From NCBI GenBank assembly GCA_026387235.1, contig JAPLMD010000025.1, forward strand, positions 1 to 33,361: 33,361 nucleotides of DNA, given 5' to 3'. Under the pieces are notes generated by a model, which worked only from the letters and a program-made list of their open reading frames with translations, was not told where the DNA came from and made no database searches. This document shows, one piece after another, positions 18,886 through 33,361 of this stretch. The position numbers and the translations under genes are program-made. The stretch is from Candidatus Omnitrophota bacterium. Its GTDB lineage: Bacteria; Omnitrophota; Gorgyraeia; Gorgyraeales; Gorgyraeaceae. Positions within the stretch are counted from its first letter, which is position 1; every line of letters begins with the position of its first letter.

Positions 18886-19443
18886 CTACGGCATAACTAT
18901 TTTTGATATAGTCATACTGCACTGCGCAACCGTCGACTCTTTTGACTTCGGATTAATCTGATATTTCGCTATCATCAAAAGCTTATCTGAATTCTCTATA
19001 TTAAACATGAAATTGACTATCTGTTCCATCTGCGCCTCGCAATTTAACAACACTATGTATTTTTTAGCCGAACCGACGTCCTTTACGCCTCCCGGTTTCA
19101 GATCTACGAGATACACAGAATTCTTGCTCGCCAAATCCTCTATATCCCTCAGTAAAGAAGTAAATTCTTCCTCTTCAGAAACCCCTTTAGTTACAAAAGA
19201 GCTGTATTCCCGGCTCTCAGCGGATATCCTGTCTTTTTGAGCAAGTATCCGCAGGCTCTTGTTTATATTGGCCTCCCGTTTCTTTATCTCTTCATTAAAC
19301 GACTTGATCTTGGAATAGATAGGGTTTACCATTAGGCGCTCAAATAACACTATGGATAAAAAAATCGCCACGACGTAAAAAATAAACCTTTCTCTTTTGT
19401 TCAGGCGCGATAAAAATACGGATATTGACTTTATATTCAACAT
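18886..19443 (-). CDS. GspM/PilO-like type II secretion inner-membrane protein
   Basis: Single N-terminal TM (FIFYVVAIFLSIVLFERLMVNPIYSKI), coiled coil, ferredoxin-like C-terminus; adjacent to the GspL/PilM-like gene. Confidence 0.72.
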   Translation of the reverse strand: MLNIKSISVFLSRLNKRERFIFYVVAIFLSIVLFERLMVNPIYSKIKSFNEEIKKREANINKSLRILAQKDRISAESREYSSFVTKGVSEEEEFTSLLRDIEDLASKNSVYLVDLKPGGVKDVGSAKKYIVLLNCEAQMEQIVNFMFNIENSDKLLMIAKYQINPKSKESTVAQCSMTISKIVMP

Positions 19444-19449
19444 ATATTA

Positions 19450-20931
19450 TTATTCTTTCTCTCTCTCAAGCGCAGCGACTATCTCAAAATCAGTCACATC
19501 CCTGCCTTCCTCTTTCCTCTTTGTGGTATACTTGGTTTTTACATCTTTAAAATATTTCGACTTTTCCATTCTGTCCACAAACGAAAAAACAGCTGACATT
19601 GAATTAGCTACCCCCCTTACAGAAAATCTGTCCTGATCGTCAAATTTAATGTCCCCTGCCTCGATATCTAATGAAATAAGGCTGTATAACTCGTTCAAAA
19701 CATCTAAAGAATAACCACGGCCGGAGAGGTATTTTCTCACTAAACCTATTTCTGCAAAATTCTTCTCTAGTATATCCGCCCCTTTGCTTAATTCCTGCTC
19801 TTTGGCAGACAGTCGCGCAAGATAAGAACTTTTAAAATAAATCTTGCTTACCAATATAAAACATGCCAGGACTAAAAGCGTAAGCACGAATATTCCTGCC
19901 TTAATCAGGTCCCTGCCTCTTTCTTCCACTAATTTGCTGAGCTTTGCCTCTTCAGGCATAAGGTTTACTTTTATATTCTCCCGGCCTAAAATAGAGGCAA
20001 TTACATTTAAAAAAGACAGATGCTTATTAACGGGAGCCTTTCCTAAGGCATCGCTTACTATCGAGAAATGTTTATAATATTGCTCTACCTTGACAGGCAG
20101 ATGTAACCCGTTGTTCAATGCGACGTCTAAATTTTTAATATCTTCTATTGCGCCGCTCAGAACCACCATATCCGGGTTTTTTTCTATGCTCTCATTCTGA
20201 TAAGCCTCCAGAGACCGCCTCAATTCTTCTACAAACTTTGCTTCGTACTTATCCCTCTCGTTTATCAAATGCTGCGCGCCTATAGGTATAGACCTTACAA
20301 ATACAGGCCTGTCATTAAAAATAACCACAAAATCTGCGATCGACTCATCTATATGAACTATGCTGCGCGGAGATTTGACTGTTTCCAGCTTTAACATCTT
20401 TGAAACAAACCACACTAAACCCTCCGGCGCGAATAATATGTTATCTAATCCAAAACCTGCCTTGGCCAATATATCGAACTGCCTCTTTATGGCGCCCCGA
20501 GTCACTATGACTAACAGGACCTTGCTATATTTGTGTTTATAAGTGCCTATGTCTATATAATCGACGATTATTTCTTCCCGGGAATAAGGGGTATGCCTGC
20601 CTGCCTGCAGGTTTATAATTTCCTTGATTTCCTGAGGATCGCTCGAAGGTATTTCTATATTTTTAGTTATTACCAGATTAGAAGGCACAATATTTACTAT
20701 GCAATAGTTTTTCAGCTTCAAATCGTTAAATGCAGATCTCAGGAGTTTTGAGATATCCGCATCGCTGAATCCGTTTATATTCCAGCTGAAAAGATGAGCT
20801 ATCTCCATTTTATTGTATCCCGGCCTTATGTGCGCGACTTTCAAGGTGTTGCTGTCAAAATCCACGCCTATGAACTCGCGGCCGCCCGCTATGGACAAAG
20901 GATTCATCTTTCTGATATCAATACCGCGCAT
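19450..20931 (-). CDS. GspL-like protein: PilM-like actin-fold domain fused to TM/PilN-like region
   Basis: FIGVDFDSNTLKVAHIRP start, SIVHIDESIADFVVIFNDRPVFVRSIPIGA, one TM segment at about residue 340, PilN-like C-terminus. Confidence 0.8.
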   Translation of the reverse strand: MRGIDIRKMNPLSIAGGREFIGVDFDSNTLKVAHIRPGYNKMEIAHLFSWNINGFSDADISKLLRSAFNDLKLKNYCIVNIVPSNLVITKNIEIPSSDPQEIKEIINLQAGRHTPYSREEIIVDYIDIGTYKHKYSKVLLVIVTRGAIKRQFDILAKAGFGLDNILFAPEGLVWFVSKMLKLETVKSPRSIVHIDESIADFVVIFNDRPVFVRSIPIGAQHLINERDKYEAKFVEELRRSLEAYQNESIEKNPDMVVLSGAIEDIKNLDVALNNGLHLPVKVEQYYKHFSIVSDALGKAPVNKHLSFLNVIASILGRENIKVNLMPEEAKLSKLVEERGRDLIKAGIFVLTLLVLACFILVSKIYFKSSYLARLSAKEQELSKGADILEKNFAEIGLVRKYLSGRGYSLDVLNELYSLISLDIEAGDIKFDDQDRFSVRGVANSMSAVFSFVDRMEKSKYFKDVKTKYTTKRKEEGRDVTDFEIVAALEREKE

Positions 20932-20932
20932 A

Positions 20933-21988
20933 TCAAGACTCCTGCCAGTAAAGTATTTTTCCGTTTTTATCCATTACGCAAACAAGGCGCGCCGTATACT
21001 TTTTATTATTCAAATGCGCGGCGCACTTAACCGTAAAACTCTCTGAAGTAGCGGCTAAATAAAGTTCCGACACAGTATTCAATCCTGCTAAATCCGATTC
21101 TGACAACTGAGTAAATTCGTTTATCCTGACCGGTATGTCAGCAGGTATTTCAAAAATATTATCGTCAACTGTTCCGTCCAGCTTGTCCTTTCCGGATCTG
21201 AAGGAGATAATTATATCCGCCATGTCCTTACTCAATCCTAAAGCCAATAATACAGTTTTTGAAGCAGTGTTGACATTGATTCTCCCTGCCCCGTAAATCG
21301 TTATATAGCCCCTTAATTTCTCCAATATATCGGAACCCATGCCTTTAACCAGCAGAAGTTCATCTATGGATTCGATATCTGCATTTTTCGCCTCATAAGG
21401 ATACGCGGAATCCCTGTAATATGAATTTTCCGCGCTGCCTATAGGTATGGAAAGCATGCTGTCAGCATCCCGCCAGTCAATGATAGAAGCTGCTAATTCC
21501 TGAGAACTCATTTCATCGAAGCCAAGCGCAAGCTGAAAAAGGCGCTCCAGTACCTGAGCGTCTGCCTTGTTTATGTTTATCTTTCTGTTTTCGTCTACAA
21601 TGCCATAACGCGCCTCCAAAGATCCGCTATCTTCATTAATATGATCATAAAAAAAATCTATAACTCCCTCCCCTATCATTACGTCCTTGAACGCAGCCGG
21701 ATCATTATTCCACGCATCTTTTAGGCAGTCGCATACAGTTCCCTCCGATGCCTTTTTAAATTCTAAAAAAGCTTTCTGCGCCCCAGCCTCTAAAATAAAA
21801 GATAATTTATCATTCTCATCCAGGCGTTTAACTAACATCGCCTCTTGCCTCACGCCATAAGCCAATATCACGCTGAATATGGACAATAGAGAAATTGACC
21901 ATAGAGAAATTATCAATATACTGCCTCTGGAATTAACCGGCAATGGGGATATTGACTGTCTTGCTGAATTTAAATACCTTGTCTCCAT
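20933..21988 (-). CDS. GspK-like minor pseudopilin (start uncertain)
   Basis: Pseudopilin N-terminus RGSILIISLWSISLLSIFSVILAYGVRQEA; ININKADAQVLERLF; INVNTASKTVLLALGLSKDMADIIISFR helix-hairpin-helix. Confidence 0.82.
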   Translation of the reverse strand: METRYLNSARQSISPLPVNSRGSILIISLWSISLLSIFSVILAYGVRQEAMLVKRLDENDKLSFILEAGAQKAFLEFKKASEGTVCDCLKDAWNNDPAAFKDVMIGEGVIDFFYDHINEDSGSLEARYGIVDENRKININKADAQVLERLFQLALGFDEMSSQELAASIIDWRDADSMLSIPIGSAENSYYRDSAYPYEAKNADIESIDELLLVKGMGSDILEKLRGYITIYGAGRINVNTASKTVLLALGLSKDMADIIISFRSGKDKLDGTVDDNIFEIPADIPVRINEFTQLSESDLAGLNTVSELYLAATSESFTVKCAAHLNNKKYTARLVCVMDKNGKILYWQES

Positions 21989-22499
21989 CTGTAATCTCCA
22001 CCTCTAACCACACTGCCAATGGCAGGTTTTCCTTAAGCCATCTATCCTGCCAGATGTATTCTTTTCTCTCGATATCGTAAGAATAATACTTAAATTCCAG
22101 CGATTTTATATTTTTTAACACCTCTCTGACCACGCCTCTTGCTCCGGCGTAGACACAGGCAAAGTCCCTTTCTTCTTTATATGCCGATCCTGTTTTAGGG
22201 TCGTAAAAATAAGATATGCTGCCCACCGTCCTTTTGCGCAGCCTTGGGCTATTCACAATCGCCGCGAAATCAAGCTGGTTCTCCATACCGGAAAAATTAA
22301 TGCCCTTAAACTTCAGGGAATTCCTGAGATCGGACGCAAATTTATCGAAAAAAATGTATAAATCCTGCTCAGGCACTTCCTTGTTCAGCCGCTGCCAAAT
22401 CTTTATGCCGTTATTAAATGTAGAATATATGCCCAAGGAAATTACGCATAATAACGCAGTAACTATGAGCATCTCTATCAACGTGAAAGCGTTATACAT
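21933..22499 (-). CDS. GspJ-like prepilin-type pseudopilin
   Basis: Prepilin motif AFTLIEMLIVTALLCVISLGIYSTF; likely start M at 22499. The ORF-track extension to 22619 is repeat-encoded. Confidence 0.82.
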   Translation of the reverse strand: MYNAFTLIEMLIVTALLCVISLGIYSTFNNGIKIWQRLNKEVPEQDLYIFFDKFASDLRNSLKFKGINFSGMENQLDFAAIVNSPRLRKRTVGSISYFYDPKTGSAYKEERDFACVYAGARGVVREVLKNIKSLEFKYYSYDIERKEYIWQDRWLKENLPLAVWLEVEITDGDKVFKFSKTVNIPIAG

Positions 22500-22501
22500 T
22501 C

Positions 22502-22588
22502 GCGGCCACAAAACCGCACCCTTCAGGGTGTGGATGGAGTATGGCCGCTCAGTATTTCGCTTCAGGAAATCGCGGGCTTTAGCCCGCG
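22502..22588. repeat. REP/hairpin-type repeat cluster between gspI-like and gspJ-like genes
   Basis: gcggcca (22502-22508)/tggccgc (22542-22548) enclosing caccc-ttca-gggtg; and cgcgggct-tt-agcccgcg (22571-22588). Confidence 0.8.
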
Positions 22589-22593
22589 AAGCT

Positions 22594-22995
22594 TCATTTT
22601 TTTTCCACATATTTTGCAAATGCGGTCCGAGACACCTTTATATCCCTGGGCCCCTCCCGCCACGACACATCTAAAACTATTTTATACAGGTCCTGGGTAT
22701 CGTAGGCCAAATCATATGAAAGATTCCAGGCGAAATCCTTATTTCCGGCTTTAAATTTTCCGTCTCTGGCCATATTGGCCAAAGGCCCTGACTGCCTCAG
22801 GTTATCCTGTACGCTCCATATCTTTTCGTCTAGCCAATATCCGACGCTAAAATAATTATGGCAATAATTGAACGTATCAAGCGACTTAAAAAATACCTCG
22901 TGTATCAACACTGCCCCCAACGATAACACCATAGTCGCAAGCATTACCTCTATCAGGGTAAAGGCCCGCTTCTTACTCCCAGTTTTTAACATCAT
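22594..22995 (-). CDS. GspI/GspH-like prepilin-type pseudopilin
   Basis: Prepilin motif RAFTLIEVMLATMVLSLGAVLIHEVF. Confidence 0.8.
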   Translation of the reverse strand: MMLKTGSKKRAFTLIEVMLATMVLSLGAVLIHEVFFKSLDTFNYCHNYFSVGYWLDEKIWSVQDNLRQSGPLANMARDGKFKAGNKDFAWNLSYDLAYDTQDLYKIVLDVSWREGPRDIKVSRTAFAKYVEKK

Positions 22996-23389
22996 CAGAA
23001 CCCTCTATTCCATCCTTGCCAAGAGAATATAAATCATAATCAGATTGGCGATGGTCGCCCGGCGATTTATATTTATATTCCCTGCCCCACGGATCAAAAG
23101 GCTTTTTTTCCAGATACGGGCCGTTCCAATTACCGGCTGAAGACGGTTTGCTCAATAAGGCGTTAAGCCCTTCCTCCGAGGAAGGGAAACCACCGTTATC
23201 CAATTCGTAAAGCTTCAGGCCGGTTGAGATATTCGCCTGTATATCCGCTTTTGCCGCAGCCACTCTTGCCTGCTCTCCACGGCCCGTGAATCTGGGCATC
23301 ACCATTGCAACCAAGGCGCCTATAATTATAACTACCAGCATGAGTTCTATAAGCGTAAAACCCGCACTTTTCTTACTTATCCGAATCAT
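22973..23389 (-). CDS. gspG: GspG, major type II secretion pseudopilin
   Basis: MIRISKKSAGFTLIELMLVVIIIGALVAMVMPRF...PFDPWGREYKYKSPGDH..YDLYSLGKDG; ATG 23389 preceded by GGAGG. Confidence 0.93.
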   Translation of the reverse strand: MIRISKKSAGFTLIELMLVVIIIGALVAMVMPRFTGRGEQARVAAAKADIQANISTGLKLYELDNGGFPSSEEGLNALLSKPSSAGNWNGPYLEKKPFDPWGREYKYKSPGDHRQSDYDLYSLGKDGIEGSDDVKNWE

Positions 23390-23396
23390 ATATCCT

Positions 23397-23426
23397 CCAA
23401 ATTTGTGAAACAAATTTGATCCTGAG
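23397..23426. repeat. Dispersed hairpin repeat, copy 2 (aaatttg-tgaaa-caaattt + gatcctgag)
   Basis: Near-identical to 13229-13257, including loop and flank. Confidence 0.85.
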
Positions 23427-23484
23427 GTAGCGTAAAGAAATGCGAGCAAAGCGAGCATTTTAGCTGCCGAAGGACCTTCTTATC

Positions 23485-24351
23485 TCAGCCTTCCTCCAAA
23501 TATTGCCTCCACTTTAAATCTAATTCTTCGATATCCTTTATGTATGTCGTATACGCGGCCCTGAATGCGTCCTCTAGCGACTTGCCGTCCCGCAATTCTC
23601 TGCAAAAATACGCAAAACTATCCGAGCCATATTTCTCTATCAAGAAACTTACCAAAGAAGCAGCCTCTAAGTAATAGGTGCTTATTATATTCTCGGCGCT
23701 TAAAAATAAAACCCCCGATTCGCCCTTTTTTGTGCGCGTCGCGCGTATATAAATCCTGCCGATCTCTTTAAAATCATCCAGGTTTATCTCCATCATATCT
23801 TTCATCGAAAGCAGCAAATCTTTTTCAAAAAAATTCTTGGCCGCCGCTTTTACAATCTGCCTTCTTGCCTCTTCTTCTCTCTGCGCCACGCCCTCATCCA
23901 GCCAAAGAGGTATCTGCCCCTTAAAACCTACAAAATCCCTGAAAACAAGATGGGCAATTTCATGCGGCAGCAGGGATTCCAGAAAATCCTTGCTCCAGGC
24001 ATAACTTACTATCTGTTTTTTTCTGTATTCCGCAATGCCCTGGGACCATTGGGGCTGGCCTGTTGCCTTTATAAAAGAAGGGTGGTCAGGGTATATGTAG
24101 ATCTTCACCCTTTTATCCCAAAGCCAAAAATCAGTATAACGGGCATAACCCAGATCTGACGCGATATTGCGGTAATACACCTCTGCCTTGTCTAACGCGT
24201 CTTTGGCGAATTTCTGATCCTGGATAAAATAAACAATAAAATGCTCTCCCTTAAACTCCTGCCAGTTTTCCTCAGCTGTAACAGCATGGCTCCAGCCCGC
24301 CGCCAGCGCAATATTCAAAATGATTAAAAATTTCAGCGCTTTTACGCTCAT
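23485..24351 (-). CDS. Exported gluzincin-type metallopeptidase (peptidase MA-like)
   Basis: Signal peptide; LLPHEIAHLVF (HExxH) ... PLWLDEGVAQREEE (downstream Glu). Confidence 0.8.
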   Translation of the reverse strand: MSVKALKFLIILNIALAAGWSHAVTAEENWQEFKGEHFIVYFIQDQKFAKDALDKAEVYYRNIASDLGYARYTDFWLWDKRVKIYIYPDHPSFIKATGQPQWSQGIAEYRKKQIVSYAWSKDFLESLLPHEIAHLVFRDFVGFKGQIPLWLDEGVAQREEEARRQIVKAAAKNFFEKDLLLSMKDMMEINLDDFKEIGRIYIRATRTKKGESGVLFLSAENIISTYYLEAASLVSFLIEKYGSDSFAYFCRELRDGKSLEDAFRAAYTTYIKDIEELDLKWRQYLEEG

Positions 24352-24368: not shown

Positions 24369-25595
24369 TCACTTTACCACCACGTTAATTTCAAATATCG
24401 GCAGAAGCATCGCTATGACAATAAAACCCACTATCAGCCCTGTTACCAAAATCATGAGCGGCTCTAAAAGATTAGTCATTACCTTCATTGCCTCGTCTGT
24501 CTCGCGTTCATAAATATTGGCTACCTCTGACAATGCATCGTCCAACCTTCCTGATTCTTCTCCTACTATTATAAGATTAGTCACGAACAAAGGTATTAAT
24601 TTCGATTCCTTTAAACTTTTACCAAAAGAGCCCCCCTGCTCTAAATCCTTATAGCTGCGCTTTAACTGATTTTTTATCATTTCATTTCCCAGGACAGGTA
24701 TAGCGATATCTATTGCCTTCAATATGGGGATGCCGTTCCTTATCAATAATTCAAGGGTGCGGCTGAAACGCGCAAGTTCTGATTTAAAGACAAACTTGCC
24801 AAATACTGGGAATCTCAGCTTAAATGCGCTGAAAAATATCCTGCCATTCTGCGTGTTTAATTGCTTTCTTACTGACAGTGCTGCAATTGCCAGAATCAAA
24901 ATCATCCAGGGCCATGATTGGCGCAGCCCAGCGCTTACAGAAATTAAAATCTTTGTAGGCATCGGCAAGGCTTGGCCGATACTTGTAAATATGTTTGTAA
25001 GCCGCGGCACTACAAAGGTAAGCATAAAAACTACCGTGGCTATGCCCATGACCGCCATAAGAATAGGGTATGCCAGCGCCATTCGTATGTGGGAAAACAT
25101 TTCTTCCTGTTTCGCGCGATATTCAGCTATCCTGAGAAGCGCGTCAGGCAGAGATCCGCTATCCTCCCCTGCGTTAATTATAGCGATGTAAAGGTAAGAA
25201 AATGACTTCGGGTATTTCATAAGCGCTGAAGAAAAACTGGATCCGTCTTTTACAGCATTATAGATATTGTAGAGCATTATTTTCAGGTTAGCATTTTCTG
25301 ACTGTTCTGATATTATGCTAATCGCCTTTAATATGGGCACCCCTGCCCTCAAAAGGCTGGCTAAATTGCGGCTGAATAAGGTAATTTCGCTTTGCGGTAT
25401 CCTGCCAAACATCCTGGTGCCTAAAGAACTCGATGCTTGTGTCTTGGGCTCGGACCGCAGGCATTCTTCTATATACAGCGGAACGCATCCCATCTGGTGT
25501 ATCTTTTCAATAGCATCTTTCTCTGACTGCGCCTCGATCTTCCCATCCTCTACATGATCCAGGCCCTTTTTTGCGCGATATTTATATATAGCCAT
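24369..25595 (-). CDS. gspF: GspF/PilC type II secretion inner-membrane platform protein
   Basis: MAIYKYRAKKG..EGKIEAQ-like N-terminus, FSRNLASLLRAGVPILKAISII..., duplicated T2SSF domain, GLIVGFIVIAMLLPIFEI. Confidence 0.93.
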   Translation of the reverse strand: MAIYKYRAKKGLDHVEDGKIEAQSEKDAIEKIHQMGCVPLYIEECLRSEPKTQASSSLGTRMFGRIPQSEITLFSRNLASLLRAGVPILKAISIISEQSENANLKIMLYNIYNAVKDGSSFSSALMKYPKSFSYLYIAIINAGEDSGSLPDALLRIAEYRAKQEEMFSHIRMALAYPILMAVMGIATVVFMLTFVVPRLTNIFTSIGQALPMPTKILISVSAGLRQSWPWMILILAIAALSVRKQLNTQNGRIFFSAFKLRFPVFGKFVFKSELARFSRTLELLIRNGIPILKAIDIAIPVLGNEMIKNQLKRSYKDLEQGGSFGKSLKESKLIPLFVTNLIIVGEESGRLDDALSEVANIYERETDEAMKVMTNLLEPLMILVTGLIVGFIVIAMLLPIFEINVVVK

Positions 25596-25598
25596 ACA

Positions 25599-27743
25599 TC
25601 ACTCCATTTCTGCCACTACATATTTATTAATCCTGGCCATGCCTGAACTGGTTATATCCAGGAAACAAACAGCGATATTATAATTTTTTTCCTCTTCTGC
25701 ATCTTCTACCCTCACTACCTTAGCCAGGCATTCTATAGGTTTTTCTCCGTCGGGCAATTCTATGGTAATTTCTAATATGGAGTCTACCGGCAATGCCTCT
25801 ATAGAAACAAATAATAGCCCTCCTCCGGAAATATTCTTTGTAACGCTCAGCTCTTCAGGCGTAAATCCGCGCTCAATCAATTCCTGCCTGGATTTGAATA
25901 CCTTGTAACGCAGATTAATGTTTTTATCCAGGCGGCCATACGCTCTATGGTCTGAAACAGGAGGTGCTGAGATAGCATCAGCCGCTTCGCTATCCGAAGC
26001 CAACTCAGCATTACTCGCGGCTGAAGAAGGCTCTTTGTTTAAAGTTATATTCATAACTTCTTCCGGGGTTGTAAGGCCTTTTATTACCTTGCGCCAGCCG
26101 TCCTGCCGTATCGTCTCCATACCTTTCGATCTGGCTATTTTATTTATCTGACTAGAGGAGGCTTTCTTTAAAATTAAATCTTTCATTGCATCGTCCAATA
26201 ATAGAAGCTCATATATAGCTGTCCTTCCGTAGAAGCCTGTGTGGTTACAATTTATGCATCCCTTGCCCCTGAATACTTTTATATCCCTTGGCTTCAGACC
26301 TAAGTCTTTTGCAATCAAATCCTTCACCTCAACCGGCGTTGATTTATCCTCGTATTTACAATCCGGGCAGATTAATCTTATTAAGCGCTGGGCTATGAAT
26401 GCCTCTACGCTTGAAACTATCAGATACGGCTCAACCCCTATATCTACCAGCCGCGTAATGCCGCTCGCGGCATCATTTGTATGAAGCGTGGACAGGACAA
26501 GGTGGCCGGTCAAAGCAACTCTTATGGCAATATCCGCCGTCTCTAAATCTCTCACTTCTCCTACCATTATTACATCAGGATCATGCCTCAATACGCTCCT
26601 GAGGCCTCTTGCAAAATCCAAACCAATCTCAGGCATGACCTGAATCTGCGTTATTCCTGACATCTCATATTCAACAGGGTCTTCTAAGGTAATAATCTTG
26701 CGCTCTTTTGTATTTATCCTGTTTAAACACGCGTATAGAGAAGTGGTCTTCCCGCTGCCTGTAGGCCCTGTAACAAAGATTATACCATGCGGCCTCTGAA
26801 TCAGTTTTTCAAAAATCTGTAAATTCATTTTTGAAAGGCCTAATTTTTCCAGGCTGTAAAGCATCTGCACGGGCAATATCCTTATAACTACGCTCTCTCC
26901 GTAAGGCGTGGGTAAGGTAGATATCCTAAGGTCAAGCACCTGTTCCTGGACTTTTACCACAGCTCTTCCGTCCTGGGGCAGCCTTCGCTCTACTATATTC
27001 AGGTTTGACATTATTTTTATGCGCGATATTATGGCGCTCAAAAAATTCTTGATCTCAGGGGGGACATTTGCGTCATAAAGCAAGCCGTCTATCCTGTAGC
27101 GAAGCGACAGTTTCTGCCTGTACGGCTCGATATGTATATCAGTAGCGCGCTTCCTGTACGCCTCCAGGATTATCTGGTTGACTAATTTTATCACCGAAGC
27201 GTCGCCCGCTAATTTCTCAATATCTTCCACTCTATCCTGAGTTGCTTCTCCGGCATAACTTTCCGAGCGGGCCGCATCCAGGCTTATTTTTTCCAATGTC
27301 TCAGTCGCAAAACCATAATATTTCTTTAATCCGTCCGATATATCTGCCTGGCAGGAAAGTATCACGTCTATATCGTAACCCAGCTGCGCGCGTATCTCAT
27401 CCTGCGTCTTTATTTCCAAAGGCGCTGATGCGGCAATCGTCAAAACCCTGTCTTTTATATCAATAGGCAGGAATTTGTAATATGCGGCTATCTTGACAGG
27501 CACTTTCTCGAGGATTGACTTATTTATTGAAAGTGTCCTGATATCAACGCATATAAGCCCTATCTTTTCGGAAAATATTTTCAAAATTTCTTTCTCAGCC
27601 ACCGCGCCGCTCTTTATTAAAGCCTGGCTAAGGTCCTGGCCTGTCGTCTCCATCTCCTTGATCAAACTATTTAATTTTTCCTTGGAGATAATTCCTTTTT
27701 CTATCAGGGCGTCATATAAAATCTTGTCGTATTTTTTTATCAT
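25599..27743 (-). CDS. gspE: GspE/PilB secretion ATPase with N-terminal MshEN domain and C-terminal PilZ domain
   Basis: GPTGSGKTTSLYACL, VGEVRDLETADIAIRVALTGHLVLSTLHTNDA, CPDC..CINCNHTGFYGRTAIYELL; C-terminal RAYGR + NISGGG PilZ motifs. Confidence 0.94.
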   Translation of the reverse strand: MIKKYDKILYDALIEKGIISKEKLNSLIKEMETTGQDLSQALIKSGAVAEKEILKIFSEKIGLICVDIRTLSINKSILEKVPVKIAAYYKFLPIDIKDRVLTIAASAPLEIKTQDEIRAQLGYDIDVILSCQADISDGLKKYYGFATETLEKISLDAARSESYAGEATQDRVEDIEKLAGDASVIKLVNQIILEAYRKRATDIHIEPYRQKLSLRYRIDGLLYDANVPPEIKNFLSAIISRIKIMSNLNIVERRLPQDGRAVVKVQEQVLDLRISTLPTPYGESVVIRILPVQMLYSLEKLGLSKMNLQIFEKLIQRPHGIIFVTGPTGSGKTTSLYACLNRINTKERKIITLEDPVEYEMSGITQIQVMPEIGLDFARGLRSVLRHDPDVIMVGEVRDLETADIAIRVALTGHLVLSTLHTNDAASGITRLVDIGVEPYLIVSSVEAFIAQRLIRLICPDCKYEDKSTPVEVKDLIAKDLGLKPRDIKVFRGKGCINCNHTGFYGRTAIYELLLLDDAMKDLILKKASSSQINKIARSKGMETIRQDGWRKVIKGLTTPEEVMNITLNKEPSSAASNAELASDSEAADAISAPPVSDHRAYGRLDKNINLRYKVFKSRQELIERGFTPEELSVTKNISGGGLLFVSIEALPVDSILEITIELPDGEKPIECLAKVVRVEDAEEEKNYNIAVCFLDITSSGMARINKYVVAEME

Positions 27744-27755
27744 GGCTAAAGGCCT

Positions 27756-28223
27756 CTATTCTAAAAGTTTACCTATCTTGCTCTTCATGCTTTCCTTGTA
27801 CCTTCGGATAGCGTCTTGCATGTCCTCTTCGGAAACCAGCACAAACTTCAATTTAAATCCGCTCGTAGCCTCTTCTGCTTTCTTTATGCGCCACGCGTCC
27901 AGAGGATTGGTTATGGCAATGGTTATCCCGTCTTTGTCTTTAAGTATCGGGAAGCACTTTGAGTCCAAAATAAACGACGGGTTAAACTGTTTTACAAAAT
28001 CCCAGTCAATGTATTTATTTTTGAGCAGAGCGAGCGGCATATTAAACTGCTCGGACAGCGCCTTTAACAAATCCTTTTCCTTAATCTGAAATTTTCTGAC
28101 TAATATAGCTCCTAAAAATTCTTTTGTTTTGCGCTGCTCGGCCAGGGCATATTCAAGCTGTGCATTATTTATAATGCCTTTTTCTATCAAAATATCGCCT
28201 AATAGTTTTTCTTTCCTATCCAT
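27756..28223 (-). CDS. Stand-alone MshEN / GspE N-terminal-domain protein
   Basis: LGDILIEKGIINNAQLEYALAEQRKTKEFLGAILVRKFQIKEKDLLKALSEQFNMPLA matches the GspE/MshE N-domain pattern; no ATPase domain. Confidence 0.85.
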   Translation of the reverse strand: MDRKEKLLGDILIEKGIINNAQLEYALAEQRKTKEFLGAILVRKFQIKEKDLLKALSEQFNMPLALLKNKYIDWDFVKQFNPSFILDSKCFPILKDKDGITIAITNPLDAWRIKKAEEATSGFKLKFVLVSEEDMQDAIRRYKESMKSKIGKLLE

Positions 28224-28226
28224 GCT

Positions 28227-29642
<1,416 letters not shown>

Positions 29643-30497
29643 TTAATGCTTGCTGACGAATAATAATCTAGCGCTGAACAGCTCCCTCATATTTCTGTCG
29701 ATCAACTCATGCCTGACTCTGAAATATTCAAGCCTTACCTTCTTGTCCATATCTTTTAAACGCTGCGAGCTTTCTTCAAGGTGCATAAACCTGGCTGCAA
29801 ATTCCGCAAGGCGGCTTAAACCAAATATATCGTATAGCTTCTGGCCCATGTAGAGATACAACAGATACTCCACGATATCCCCCGGGTCTGATTCAAATAT
29901 CACTTCTGAAAATATTTCTTTAGCAGCTTTTGTGTCTTTTGGTTTTTCGGAAAAAGGCAAAAACGAAACAGTCCTTACCTCTTGCACCGTCAATGAAACA
30001 GGGTGAGAGTAAATAACCTTCAGGTATCCTGCGGAATTCTCGTAAACCTTGCCCAGGACGTAATTGCGCAGCTGCATTGCCTGGCTATATCTTTCTTCAT
30101 CTTTAATGCCGCTAAACGCAGCGAAGGGTATACCGGCCTCGCGCGCATAAATCCTGCCGCGCTCTCCTACGATTACCAGCTTGCCCGGAATTTGTTTCAA
30201 CTGCTGAATAGCTGTATTTACTACCATCATATTAAGCCCGCCCAAAAGCCCGCTATCCGAAGTAACAGCTATGACTATCTGCAGCCTGTTTGAAGGTTTT
30301 AAAAACGGGTGATTGATTTTTGCGAGGTCTATAAACTTTAAAAAATTTTCAAATGTTAAGTCGAATTTTTCGTATGCCTTAATCTTCTGCTCCAGGGCTC
30401 TGAACTGAGCTACGGAAATTGTCTTTAACGTTTCGATCAAAGAAGAAAGGCCATTATTAAATTCCATGTCTTTTTTTATATTAGAAAGGGTTTTCAT
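29643..30497 (-). CDS. F-type ATPase subunit gamma, divergent alternate type
   Basis: Gamma fold pattern: N-terminal helix, VTSDSGLLGGLNMMVVNTA, C-terminal FAARFMHLEESSQRLKDM; location between alpha and beta. Confidence 0.85.
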   Translation of the reverse strand: MKTLSNIKKDMEFNNGLSSLIETLKTISVAQFRALEQKIKAYEKFDLTFENFLKFIDLAKINHPFLKPSNRLQIVIAVTSDSGLLGGLNMMVVNTAIQQLKQIPGKLVIVGERGRIYAREAGIPFAAFSGIKDEERYSQAMQLRNYVLGKVYENSAGYLKVIYSHPVSLTVQEVRTVSFLPFSEKPKDTKAAKEIFSEVIFESDPGDIVEYLLYLYMGQKLYDIFGLSRLAEFAARFMHLEESSQRLKDMDKKVRLEYFRVRHELIDRNMRELFSARLLFVSKH

Positions 30498-30507
30498 GGT
30501 CTTTCTG

Positions 30508-31995
30508 TTATTTCATTATTTCATTGAAGTATTTTTTAAAACCCTCTTGTAATTGAGTCTTGAGTTCGTCATCTAATTCCCTTGCATTGCGAAGGTTAGC
30601 GCAAAACTGAGGATACTGCTTTAACATAAACGAGAGTATGTCTCTTTTAAAATCCCTTACCTGGTTTATTGATATGTTATCCAATATTCCCTTGTTAAAT
30701 GCATATAGATATATCACCTGCTCCTCGAGCGAAACAGGCTTGTTCTTATCCTGGATTATAAGCTGGTTCATCACTTCTCCGCGTTTCAATTTTAACTCTG
30801 CTTCCTTGGAAAGCCCTGTAGTGCGCAGCTGAGTCATCTGCACTAATTCCTTATACTGCAGATAATCCAAGCGCAGGGACTTGCTTAATTCCTTCATCGC
30901 AGGCCACTGCGCCTTGTTTCCTATACGCGAAACAGAAAGGCCGAAGTCGATTGCGGGCTTAAATCCCTTATTAAAAAGCGATGTGGAAAAATACAGCTGG
31001 CCGTCAGTCATGGAAATAATGTTTGTGGAGATGTAGCCTGTGACATCGCCTTGCAGTATCTCCACGATAGGGAAAAAAGTCATAGAGCCTCCGCCTAATT
31101 CAGGTTTTAAAAAACCCGCGCGCTCCATGAGCTGTGAATGTATATAAAAAATATCTCCCGGATACGCCTCTCTTCCAGGCGCCCTCTCAAGCAACAGGGA
31201 TATCTGCCTGTATACCCAGGCGTGCTTGGTAAGGTCATCAAATATCACTAAAACATCCTTACCTTTATTCATAAAATATTCGCCTAATACGCAGGCGGAA
31301 TAAGGGGCAAGATACTGCTCTCCTACCGACAACGAAGCTATGCCGCTGACTACTATCGTATAACTAAAGGCCTCTTTTTCTTTAAAAGTCTCCAGTATTT
31401 TCAAAAAACTGGAGTAAGGTTTGCCTATGCAGCAGTAGATGCAGATAACGCTTTTCCCTTTCTGGTTCAATATAGCGTCTATGCCTATTGTGGTCTTGCC
31501 TGTAAGCCTGTCTCCGATAATTAACTGCCTCTGGCCTTTGGCAATAGGTATTACCGCGTCTAAAATCAACGTGCCTGTTTCAAGCGTTTCTTTTACAGGC
31601 GCCCTGTCCATAACGCCCGGCGCCACTGTGAAGACAGGATAAAATTCTTTTGCTTCTATAGGGCCTTCGTTGTCCTGAGGCTGGCATAAGCTATTTACTA
31701 TGCGGCCTAAAAATCCGTCTGATACAGGCAATGTCAATGACTTGCCTTTATTATAAACCTCGTCGCCTGAACGTATGGCAGTAGCATCGCCCAGGACAAG
31801 CACCTGAACCCTGTCTTCGTTGAAGCCCATGACAAGGCCGGGGGTACCGTTAGCAAATTCAACTATCTGGCCGTTCATGCAGGAAGGAAGGCCTTTTACA
31901 ATGACTATGAATTTGCGGACTGACTCAACCTGGCCTACTTCTCTGATCTCAAAGTTTGTACTGACGCTGACTTTTGTTTTAATCTGGGATTCCAT
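30508..31995 (-). CDS. F-type ATPase subunit alpha, divergent alternate type
   Basis: IIGDRLTGKTTIGIDAI, LLLERAPGREAYPGDIFYIHSQLMERA, TNIISMTDGQLYFSTSLFNKGFKPAIDFGLSVSRIGNKAQ. Confidence 0.94.
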   Translation of the reverse strand: MESQIKTKVSVSTNFEIREVGQVESVRKFIVIVKGLPSCMNGQIVEFANGTPGLVMGFNEDRVQVLVLGDATAIRSGDEVYNKGKSLTLPVSDGFLGRIVNSLCQPQDNEGPIEAKEFYPVFTVAPGVMDRAPVKETLETGTLILDAVIPIAKGQRQLIIGDRLTGKTTIGIDAILNQKGKSVICIYCCIGKPYSSFLKILETFKEKEAFSYTIVVSGIASLSVGEQYLAPYSACVLGEYFMNKGKDVLVIFDDLTKHAWVYRQISLLLERAPGREAYPGDIFYIHSQLMERAGFLKPELGGGSMTFFPIVEILQGDVTGYISTNIISMTDGQLYFSTSLFNKGFKPAIDFGLSVSRIGNKAQWPAMKELSKSLRLDYLQYKELVQMTQLRTTGLSKEAELKLKRGEVMNQLIIQDKNKPVSLEEQVIYLYAFNKGILDNISINQVRDFKRDILSFMLKQYPQFCANLRNARELDDELKTQLQEGFKKYFNEIMK

Positions 31996-32006
31996 TATAA
32001 GCTATT

Positions 32007-32684
32007 TTATAAGCTGAGTTTCTTGGCTTGCTCCTGTATTTTATTTTTGAAACTGCCGTCTAAAACCAAGCTGCCTATAAGAGTAATGTCCCGGCTCAAC
32101 ACCTCTTTTATCTTCTTGGATAATAGCTTGCGCTGTTCTTCATTTAAATCAAATGCCGACTTGATGTTTATCTCATGAATATCTTCTGCGACAGACAATC
32201 GCTCCAGTTGATTAAAACCATTTTTAATAAGTTCGTTAAGCCAGTGGATATGCACAATTTGCTTGAACTCCTCAGGGAGAACATACTGGGTTAGCTCGCA
32301 AGCCTTGCTAACTGCTTCTCTTGCAATTCTCTCTTCTATCTCCGAGATAAGAAGCTGGCGCGACTTGTCCGCCTGTTTCATCATTTCTTCGCCTTTAACC
32401 CTGGTCTTGCTCAATATGTCATCCCTCTCTTTTTCTGCCTGTTTAATAATGCTTTCTTTGAGCTGCTGAGCTTCGCCCTGGGCCTTAGATAATATCTCCT
32501 GGGTTTTCTGCTTTAAATCTTCGAGCCTTTTTTGGAGATCTTGTTCTTTTTTGGAATAATCCTGATTCAATTCGTCGAGATGTTTTGTAGCCAATATCAC
32601 GTTCTGATTAAGTATTCGGCGCAGAATAAATATAAGGCCGCCAAATATAACGATTTGCAATAATACTAACGAAGCAATAAGCAT
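32007..32684 (-). CDS. F-type ATPase b-delta fusion-like peripheral stalk subunit
   Basis: N-terminal TM + long charged coiled coil (b-like), then delta-like C-terminus INIKSAFDLNEEQRKLLSKKIKEVLSRDITL...VLDGSFKNKIQE. Confidence 0.82.
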   Translation of the reverse strand: MLIASLVLLQIVIFGGLIFILRRILNQNVILATKHLDELNQDYSKKEQDLQKRLEDLKQKTQEILSKAQGEAQQLKESIIKQAEKERDDILSKTRVKGEEMMKQADKSRQLLISEIEERIAREAVSKACELTQYVLPEEFKQIVHIHWLNELIKNGFNQLERLSVAEDIHEINIKSAFDLNEEQRKLLSKKIKEVLSRDITLIGSLVLDGSFKNKIQEQAKKLSL

Positions 32685-32708
32685 ATTATTCCCCCATCTT
32701 TATGAAAG

Positions 32709-32736
32709 ATTATATCATATCCAGTATATTAGTCAA
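32709..32736 (-). promoter_or_regulatory. Predicted strong sigma70 promoter upstream of b-delta
   Basis: Minus strand TTGACT (32736-32731), 16-nt spacer, extended -10 TGATATAAT with TATAAT at 32714-32709; ATG at 32684 preceded by a G-rich RBS-like stretch. Confidence 0.78.
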
Positions 32737-32778
32737 ATATATAAGAATAAGGAGGCCTTTTGAAAAGTTACATTAGTA

Positions 32779-32938
32779 TCTTTCTGGCTGGCAGGCTTTC
32801 GAAAAGACGTTTGGACGCCCCAGCGAGGCGTCCTGCACTCACTGTTTCTTCTCGCTCGCCCGATATCTTTGAGCTTTCGGCGGGCACCCTGCCCGCTCGA
32901 AGAAACAATGCTTTTCTCAAACCTGCCAGCTAGAAAGA
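32779..32938. ncRNA. Candidate structured RNA / complex inverted-repeat element A
   Basis: Nested stems: 32779-32798 with 32919-32938 (18/20); 32801-32806/32911-32916; 32813-32819/32827-32833; 32843-32851/32899-32907; 32880-32886/32890-32896. Confidence 0.6.
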
Positions 32939-32966
32939 GCTAACATTTTACAACGTATATCTATGA

Positions 32967-33147
32967 GCCAGGCTGGGGCCTGAGGCACATTTGAGAGGTT
33001 TCGGCATAATTGATTCTTTGGATATAGGTGCGCAAGGGATTACGGCGAAGTTTTTTATACTGTCAAGACTACCTGCAGTATAAAAAACGAGCCGTAAACC
33101 GTAGTGCACGGCGAAACCATCTCTGTGCCGAACGGCCCCAGCCTGGC
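32967..33147. ncRNA. Candidate structured RNA / complex inverted-repeat element B
   Basis: Nested stems: 32967-32980/33134-33147 (14 bp); 32984-32989/33124-33129; 32993-33003/33112-33123 (one bulge); 33028-33031/33106-33109; 33040-33046/33091-33097; 33050-33062/33076-33088 (13 bp). Confidence 0.65.
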
Positions 33148-33204
33148 CAGGGCTGGCGAAAGCAATTAGTGTCACCTGACTGAAAGTATTACAATAAGGA
33201 TGGG

Positions 33205-33361
33205 TTAAGAAGCGGTGAATAATTGAAAGACTATAAGCATGGCAATGACTGACAATGCCTGAGCAAATAAAAGAGCGATAACCATTGCGGTAAATATCTT
33301 TGGCGCGCTGGAAGGATTTCTGCCTAAAGCATTGATGCTGGCATAACTGCTGGCGGCAAAT
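33205..33361 (-). CDS. F-type ATPase subunit c, C-terminal half (5' end outside window)
   Basis: Own translation: FAASSYASINALGRNPSSAPKIFTAMVIALLFAQALSVIAMLIVFQLFTAS*; loop GRNP plus TM2 alignable with c subunits (ARQP..AxAE-S/A..). No ORF-track entry because the start is off-window. Confidence 0.82.
   Translation of the reverse strand, partial: FAASSYASINALGRNPSSAPKIFTAMVIALLFAQALSVIAMLIVFQLFTAS

Follow-up and report, generated by a model that had tools for sequence, protein, structure and literature searches.

F-type ATPase genes lying beside type IV pilus clusters have been described in Omnitrophota as 'symbiotic' (sF) F-type ATPases, with attachment and motility proposed for those loci; the same study grouped their alpha subunits with Mycoplasma type 2/3 and reported giant ORFs as a separate trait of the phylum (Seymour et al. 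2023, PMC10066038). In the main text of that paper we saw no mention of the c subunit, its carboxylate, a missing a subunit, a fusion of b with delta, or a link to giant proteins. Our search turned up no previous account of the missing a subunit, the lost carboxylate or the giant-protein partner described below; the locus itself was reported in 2023.

The F1-like X0 ATPases of Mycoplasma are related to this question. Type 2 is the gliding G1-ATPase of M. mobile, for which mechanical work has been proposed, and Type 3 goes with MIB-MIP (PMC3369863, PMC12994834). Alpha in these F1-like ATPases is without the N-terminal helix to which delta and b normally bind (PMC12994834). In the ordinary complex of Bacillus PS3, a single cE56Q substitution in the c10 ring ends synthesis, pumping and DCCD-sensitive ATPase activity (PMC8809890, citing Mitome 2004). 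The ProAD survey flagged c/K subunits lacking Glu or Asp as 'non-catalytic' in 20 F/N-type and 41 A-type candidates (PMC11738941), and the c subunits with which we are concerned resemble those in having no Glu or Asp. We found no lineage or mechanism given there for the 20 F/N-type candidates. ProAD required an a subunit for a functional F- or N-type complex, so complexes without one fall outside the survey.

The gene examined here is cut by the end of a contig from an Omnitrophota genome. We consider it, with a probability of roughly 0.7, to encode the c subunit of an F-type rotary ATPase that has been repurposed and translocates no ions.

An F-type operon beside pilus-type genes

The window, by which we mean the whole stretch of DNA analysed, is the entire contig (G000:C69; 33,361 bp) of a 1.5-Mb genome that is 95% complete. 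Every feature named here is on the minus strand. The 3' two thirds of the c gene (33205–33360) are followed by a b/delta fusion predicted to form the stator stalk (32007–32684), then by the F1 subunits alpha (30508–31995), gamma, the central shaft (29643–30497), and beta (28227–29624). Next come a protein with an MshEN domain, which is of the c-di-GMP-binding type (27756–28223), a GspE/PilB-like ATPase with MshEN and PilZ domains (25599–27743), a GspF/PilC-like inner-membrane platform protein (24369–25595), and a conserved neighbor with a peptidase-like LPHEIAH motif (23485–24351) whose family occurs in 53 loci. The series continues with a GspG major pseudopilin scoring above the TIGR01710 cut-off (22973–23458), minor pseudopilins (GspJ-like, GspK-like and one unnamed prepilin; 20933–22995), and PilM/GspL-like and GspM-like assembly proteins (18886–20931). 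This arrangement fits the published sF locus, in which the F1 genes of an Omnitrophota genome, separate from a respiratory F-ATPase, lie no more than about 10 kb from genes of the pilus type.

Across Omnitrophota, the conserved order is a giant exported protein bearing a single TM helix at its C-terminus, epsilon, c, the b/delta fusion, alpha, gamma, beta, GspE, GspF and pseudopilins. The part from epsilon to beta, in that order or in a truncated or slightly shuffled form, was present in about 123 loci, and the order of the operon is held across many families. Nearly all public records matching the loci are Candidatus Omnitrophota, and no relatives were found on viral contigs. Epsilon is directly upstream of c in relatives, being adjacent in the two that we used most for comparison, G013 (alpha 96% identical to that of the window) and G007 (67% identical). 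It is short, and its recognised part is the N-terminal beta-sandwich only. Neither epsilon (E ≤ 1) nor the gene that precedes it in relatives, called the partner below (E ≤ 1e-8), was found in the genome of the window; both would lie past the contig end. Two loci are arranged differently (L039, G015:C26; L041, G001:C181), with beta apart from gamma, two sensor-like membrane proteins after gamma, and epsilon on another contig. Between c and b/delta, the window has a spacer of 520 bp (32685–33204), compared with roughly 350 bp in G013 and roughly 20 bp in G007. The spacer may represent the insertion of a repeat element; Rfam recognised no RNA family in it or anywhere else in the window.

The b/delta protein consists of an N-terminal TM helix, a coiled coil and the C-terminal half of delta. 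Its delta part fits only the C-terminal half of delta profiles, and the G013 orthologue gave partial matches to the NCBIfam b and delta families. The window copy is 15 residues shorter than that orthologue, the missing residues being part of the conserved delta motif, through either an in-frame deletion or an assembly fault. Some b/delta profile matches contain one in-frame stop, though in many cases this may be the genuine stop codon or one lying immediately ahead of the start.

The F1 head looks alive, judging by its catalytic residues. In the window, alpha has a Walker A motif (GDRLTGKT) and the arginine finger (SVSRIG), and beta has a Walker A motif (GGAALGKS) and the catalytic Glu in GERIREGNE. 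Among the loci, beta retains the Walker A in 97 of 98 and the catalytic Glu motif in 96 of 98, and alpha retains its arginine finger in 114 of 123; truncated genes are among the exceptions. Both window subunits score above the cut-offs for ordinary F1 (alpha, TIGR00962, 552 vs 484; beta, TIGR01039, 557 vs 463), and their best relatives among solved structures are ordinary F1.

The complex thus resembles ordinary bacterial F1Fo in these scores and in the usual order of c, b, alpha, gamma and beta. It differs in having no a subunit, a lost carboxylate, b fused to the C-terminal half of delta, a short epsilon, and an N-terminal extension of alpha of about 16–18 residues compared with 27 in the ordinary alpha of G017. 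Of what defines an ion-translocating F1Fo, catalytic alpha and beta are there; the a subunit (PF00119) and the membrane Glu/Asp of c (Gln in the window, G013 and G007) are not. Assignment to the N-ATPases failed on all three profiles tried (TIGR03324, 506 vs 750.5; TIGR03305, 473 vs 752; TIGR03323, 42 vs 282 bits for alpha, beta and gamma, respectively). Of the N-ATPase gene arrangement (atpQ, atpR and a beside c), the a gene is not present at the loci, and epsilon is adjacent to c in G013 and G007.

NCBIfam scores, a comparison by profile rather than by tree, lend no support to the published grouping of these alpha subunits with Mycoplasma type 2/3. The profiles for the Mycoplasma Type 2/3 pairs MMOB1660/MMOB1670 and MSC_0619/MSC_0618 were missed (410 vs 600, 418 vs 850, 297 vs 520 and 406 vs 570 bits). 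The two kinds of complex share an F1 head apart from ion pumping and a shortened alpha N-terminus, and clusters of both kinds encode a large protein with a C-terminal TM segment (helices in Mycoplasma, with a signal peptide in Type 2). The Mycoplasma complexes have no c, b, delta or a, and instead have X0 proteins with many TM helices, including a 12-TM protein. The Omnitrophota complex, in contrast, has a true c and a b/delta stalk, and no conserved polytopic protein of the 12-TM type. On profile scores, then, the Mycoplasma F1-like ATPases appear to be analogues and not members of the same family.

Repeated loss of the c-subunit carboxylate within one clade

The carboxylate in TM2 of the c subunit is required for ion translocation. 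On the minus strand, positions 33205–33360, in the frame one base in from the window end, translate to FAASSYASINALGRNPSSAPKIFTAMVIALLFAQALSVIAMLIVFQLFTAS, followed by a stop. The 5' part of the gene is missing because the assembly ends there. Against Pfam ATP-synt_C, the fragment scored 23.5 bits, just below the 24-bit cut-off; the complete orthologue in G013 scored 28 bits. In the alignment, the position of the ion-binding Glu is occupied by a CAG codon (33259–33261), so the sequence-only reading was right that Gln takes its place, and equally right that the visible part of TM2 is free of Asp and Glu. The full c subunit of G013 is MSRNVALVIIFGLSLLGPCAVFAASSYASINALGRNPSSAPKIFTAMVIALLFAQALAVIALLIVFQLFTAS, and the stretch absent from the window reads MSRNVALVIIFGLSLLGPCAV... 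in G013; its TM1 contains no acid. G007 also has Gln at the site and a TM1 without acid, and the more distant G015 (alpha 52% identical) has Glu. Reading CAG as a sequencing error for GAG, or as chance, does not hold, since Gln recurs at the same column in G013, G007 and about 20 other loci from many species. The suggestion that a normal second F-type c paralogue might be present also failed, as the other c/K subunits found in the genome are all those of V/A-type ATPases. Genes for these are carried by two further contigs (G000:C67 and G000:C39), giving two other rotary ATPases in the genome.

We read the site residue in 117 c genes located beside a b/delta gene. It was Glu in 88, Gln in 21, Val in 3, Ala in 2, and Phe, Met and Gly in 1 each. 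The single Gly comes from a locus with tandem c genes (L226; 6406 and 6645), one with Glu and the other with Gly. A further, partly masked locus (L159), additional to the 117, also reads Gln. Ordinary c subunits recovered near an a subunit in the same class served as a control and had Glu in 22 of 22 cases; nine further control loci with an a subunit gave no c.

The carboxylate has been lost repeatedly within one Omnitrophota clade. On a tree of alpha, every non-Glu case falls within a single clade of 66 rows. The site column of its 63 c sequences reads Glu 36, Gln 21, Val 2, Ala 2, Phe 1 and Met 1. On a more careful tree of this clade, whose bootstrap was not yet fully settled, we counted 13 changes between Glu and non-Glu (12–14 in bootstrap trees), at least 8 of them forced by well-supported branches. 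Outside the clade, Glu was found in 47 of 47 readable c subunits, and those loci also lack an a subunit. Gln is not fixed in the family, and because Glu was lost many times within one clade, the Glu-bearing homologues do not refute its replacement in the window. The cytoplasmic loop of c, which contacts gamma/epsilon in known F-ATPases, is invariant in the clade with losses (LGRNPS in 63 of 63), and the C-terminal QLF is nearly so.

Absence of the a subunit and competing readings

With the a-subunit profile PF00119 at E ≤ 1, we obtained no match in the genome of the window or in G013, G007, G015 or G001. The same profile matched at E = 4e-46 in G017, a genome of the same genus with an ordinary F-ATPase. 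A profile of the b/delta fusion matched in 233 of 386 genomes of the class (E ≤ 1e-6); ordinary subunits are among the weak matches (G017 is an example), and we examined about 120 strong cases further. In these loci the F1 head, gamma, epsilon, the fused b/delta stalk and c are encoded together, and an a subunit was detected in none of the approximately 123 operon regions by the profile that detects it in the control locus L040. Elsewhere in the genome, an a subunit is encoded in 52 of the 111 genomes with an operon locus. Restricting the count to high-quality genomes (≥90% completeness, ≤5% contamination) left 31 of 65 with no a anywhere, among them G071, assembled as a single 1.97-Mb contig. 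These absences are profile results from genomes most of which are MAGs, many of them incomplete; a very divergent a could escape the profiles, and an unrelated membrane protein might take its place.

The missing a subunit bears on what a c-ring with Gln could do. The proposal that the rotor does not pump ions in the conventional way is supported, and strengthened, by this absence; the supposition that the complex is an ordinary ATP synthase is not, and a separate, non-respiratory F-type complex takes its place. ATP hydrolysis would turn gamma, epsilon and the c-ring freely in the membrane. The ring would turn with no ion flux, since without a there would be no path by which ions could load and unload. 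The half-channel needed for deprotonating the site would likewise be missing. A Glu in that position would then be expected to stay protonated, and a neutral residue could replace it. Gln would be a near-isosteric stand-in for protonated Glu. The chief objection to simple neutrality is that all clades except one have retained Glu, though their loci also have no a. Such conservation is not explained by neutrality alone, which suggests that in those clades Glu may be needed structurally or may interact with a stator partner that has escaped recognition.

That same conservation (47 of 47) speaks for a ring that continues to move ions by way of a highly divergent a subunit not yet recognised, with Gln-type rings binding ions by backbone and polar side chains. 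The b/delta stalk, which normally anchors to a, is also retained, and in apicomplexans, stator subunits that are cryptic or highly diverged are known (PMC6133553). We nevertheless think this unlikely. Besides c and the GspF family, the operon neighborhood has no conserved polytopic membrane protein. Rings with Val, Ala, Phe or Met have no acid at the site and no relocated acid, and a single Gln ends pumping in ordinary FoF1 (PMC8809890).

Another way to retain ion translocation would be to borrow the a subunit of an ordinary ATP synthase encoded elsewhere, as about half of the operon-bearing genomes would allow. This is highly improbable given that the 31 good genomes without a include that of the window and those of its nearest relatives. 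Where an ordinary a is encoded, it shows no clear link to the site residue: Glu is equally common with it (45) and without it (43), and Gln is not commoner where it is present (8 with, 14 without). In the single-contig genomes G041 and G311, moreover, the a gene is about 0.5 Mb from the operon.

We give very little credence to the idea that the operon is a decaying paralogue in the course of being lost, with c drifting neutrally. The 15 residues of delta motif missing from the window b/delta and the variable site residue are what such decay might leave behind. However, gene order is kept from family to family, catalytic residues are conserved, the loop and C-terminus of c are nearly invariant, and the frames remain open in species where alpha identity is as low as 52–67%. 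The remaining alternative, an ordinary ATP synthase whose carboxylate has moved to TM1, has a precedent in the E. coli suppressor D61G/A24D, a relocation which that organism tolerates, and can be dismissed, since there is no a subunit and the central part of TM1 is free of acids in every non-Glu c, including the full-length G013 and G007 orthologues; any Asp or Glu in a non-Glu c subunit lies at the N-terminus, the end of the loop (L169) or the C-terminal end (L119, and L162, where c is truncated).

A candidate partner for the rotor

If the complex does not translocate ions, torque would be spent mechanically. The best candidate recipient would be the product of the conserved gene immediately upstream of epsilon, a single-TM protein that is either joined to a giant exported repeat protein or encoded beside one; the pilus or type II secretion-like machinery of the same operon would be an alternative. 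The partner family occurs in 103 loci, mostly directly upstream of epsilon, and is also present in other classes of the phylum. In some cases it forms the end of a giant exported protein; in others it is a stand-alone protein of some 270 residues, often encoded after a giant gene. Partner-bearing open frames of 3,000–4,700 residues are common, and the domain was also seen in frames of 12,861 (G193:C1), 11,907 (G413:C27) and 9,738 (G290:C33) residues. The presence of the domain within such frames suggests that some Omnitrophota giant proteins may belong to this operon.

The conserved C-terminal part of the partner has a beta-sandwich and a helical bundle together with one TM helix, in which two Trp residues are invariant (consensus TxTWxVIFxIIxFxGLLxGVFFFTWxRQ). 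AlphaFold2 modeled this part with a pLDDT of 89. A fold search of the PDB with the model gave no match at E ≤ 0.001, and weak matches to receptor and MS-ring folds were discarded as not meaningful. No Pfam family scored above its cut-off for the partner or for the giant-protein part tested.

The rotor is probably coupled to the giant surface protein or to the pilus-like machinery. The link to the giant protein is one of neighboring genes and not of contact, and both rotation and ATPase activity are predictions. Such an assembly would serve attachment, movement on surfaces or export in bacteria that are small and possibly predatory. We tentatively raise the further possibility that a whole F-type rotor with a true c-ring has been turned, phylum-wide, into a purely mechanical transmembrane motor, whose carboxylate-free ring might drive or anchor a giant extracellular protein via the single TM helix with its two Trp residues.

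To our knowledge, the c-ring carboxylate and the a subunit are regarded as the heart of every rotary F-ATPase. In these bacteria, nature has in effect run the deletion experiment several times, with a and the carboxylate gone and F1 and the ring intact. The loci offer a natural test of the function of a c-ring that is unable to carry ions, and they suggest a route by which rotary motors may be recruited to mechanical work. They also tie together, in one operon, two puzzling traits of Omnitrophota, their giant proteins and their non-respiratory F-ATPases.
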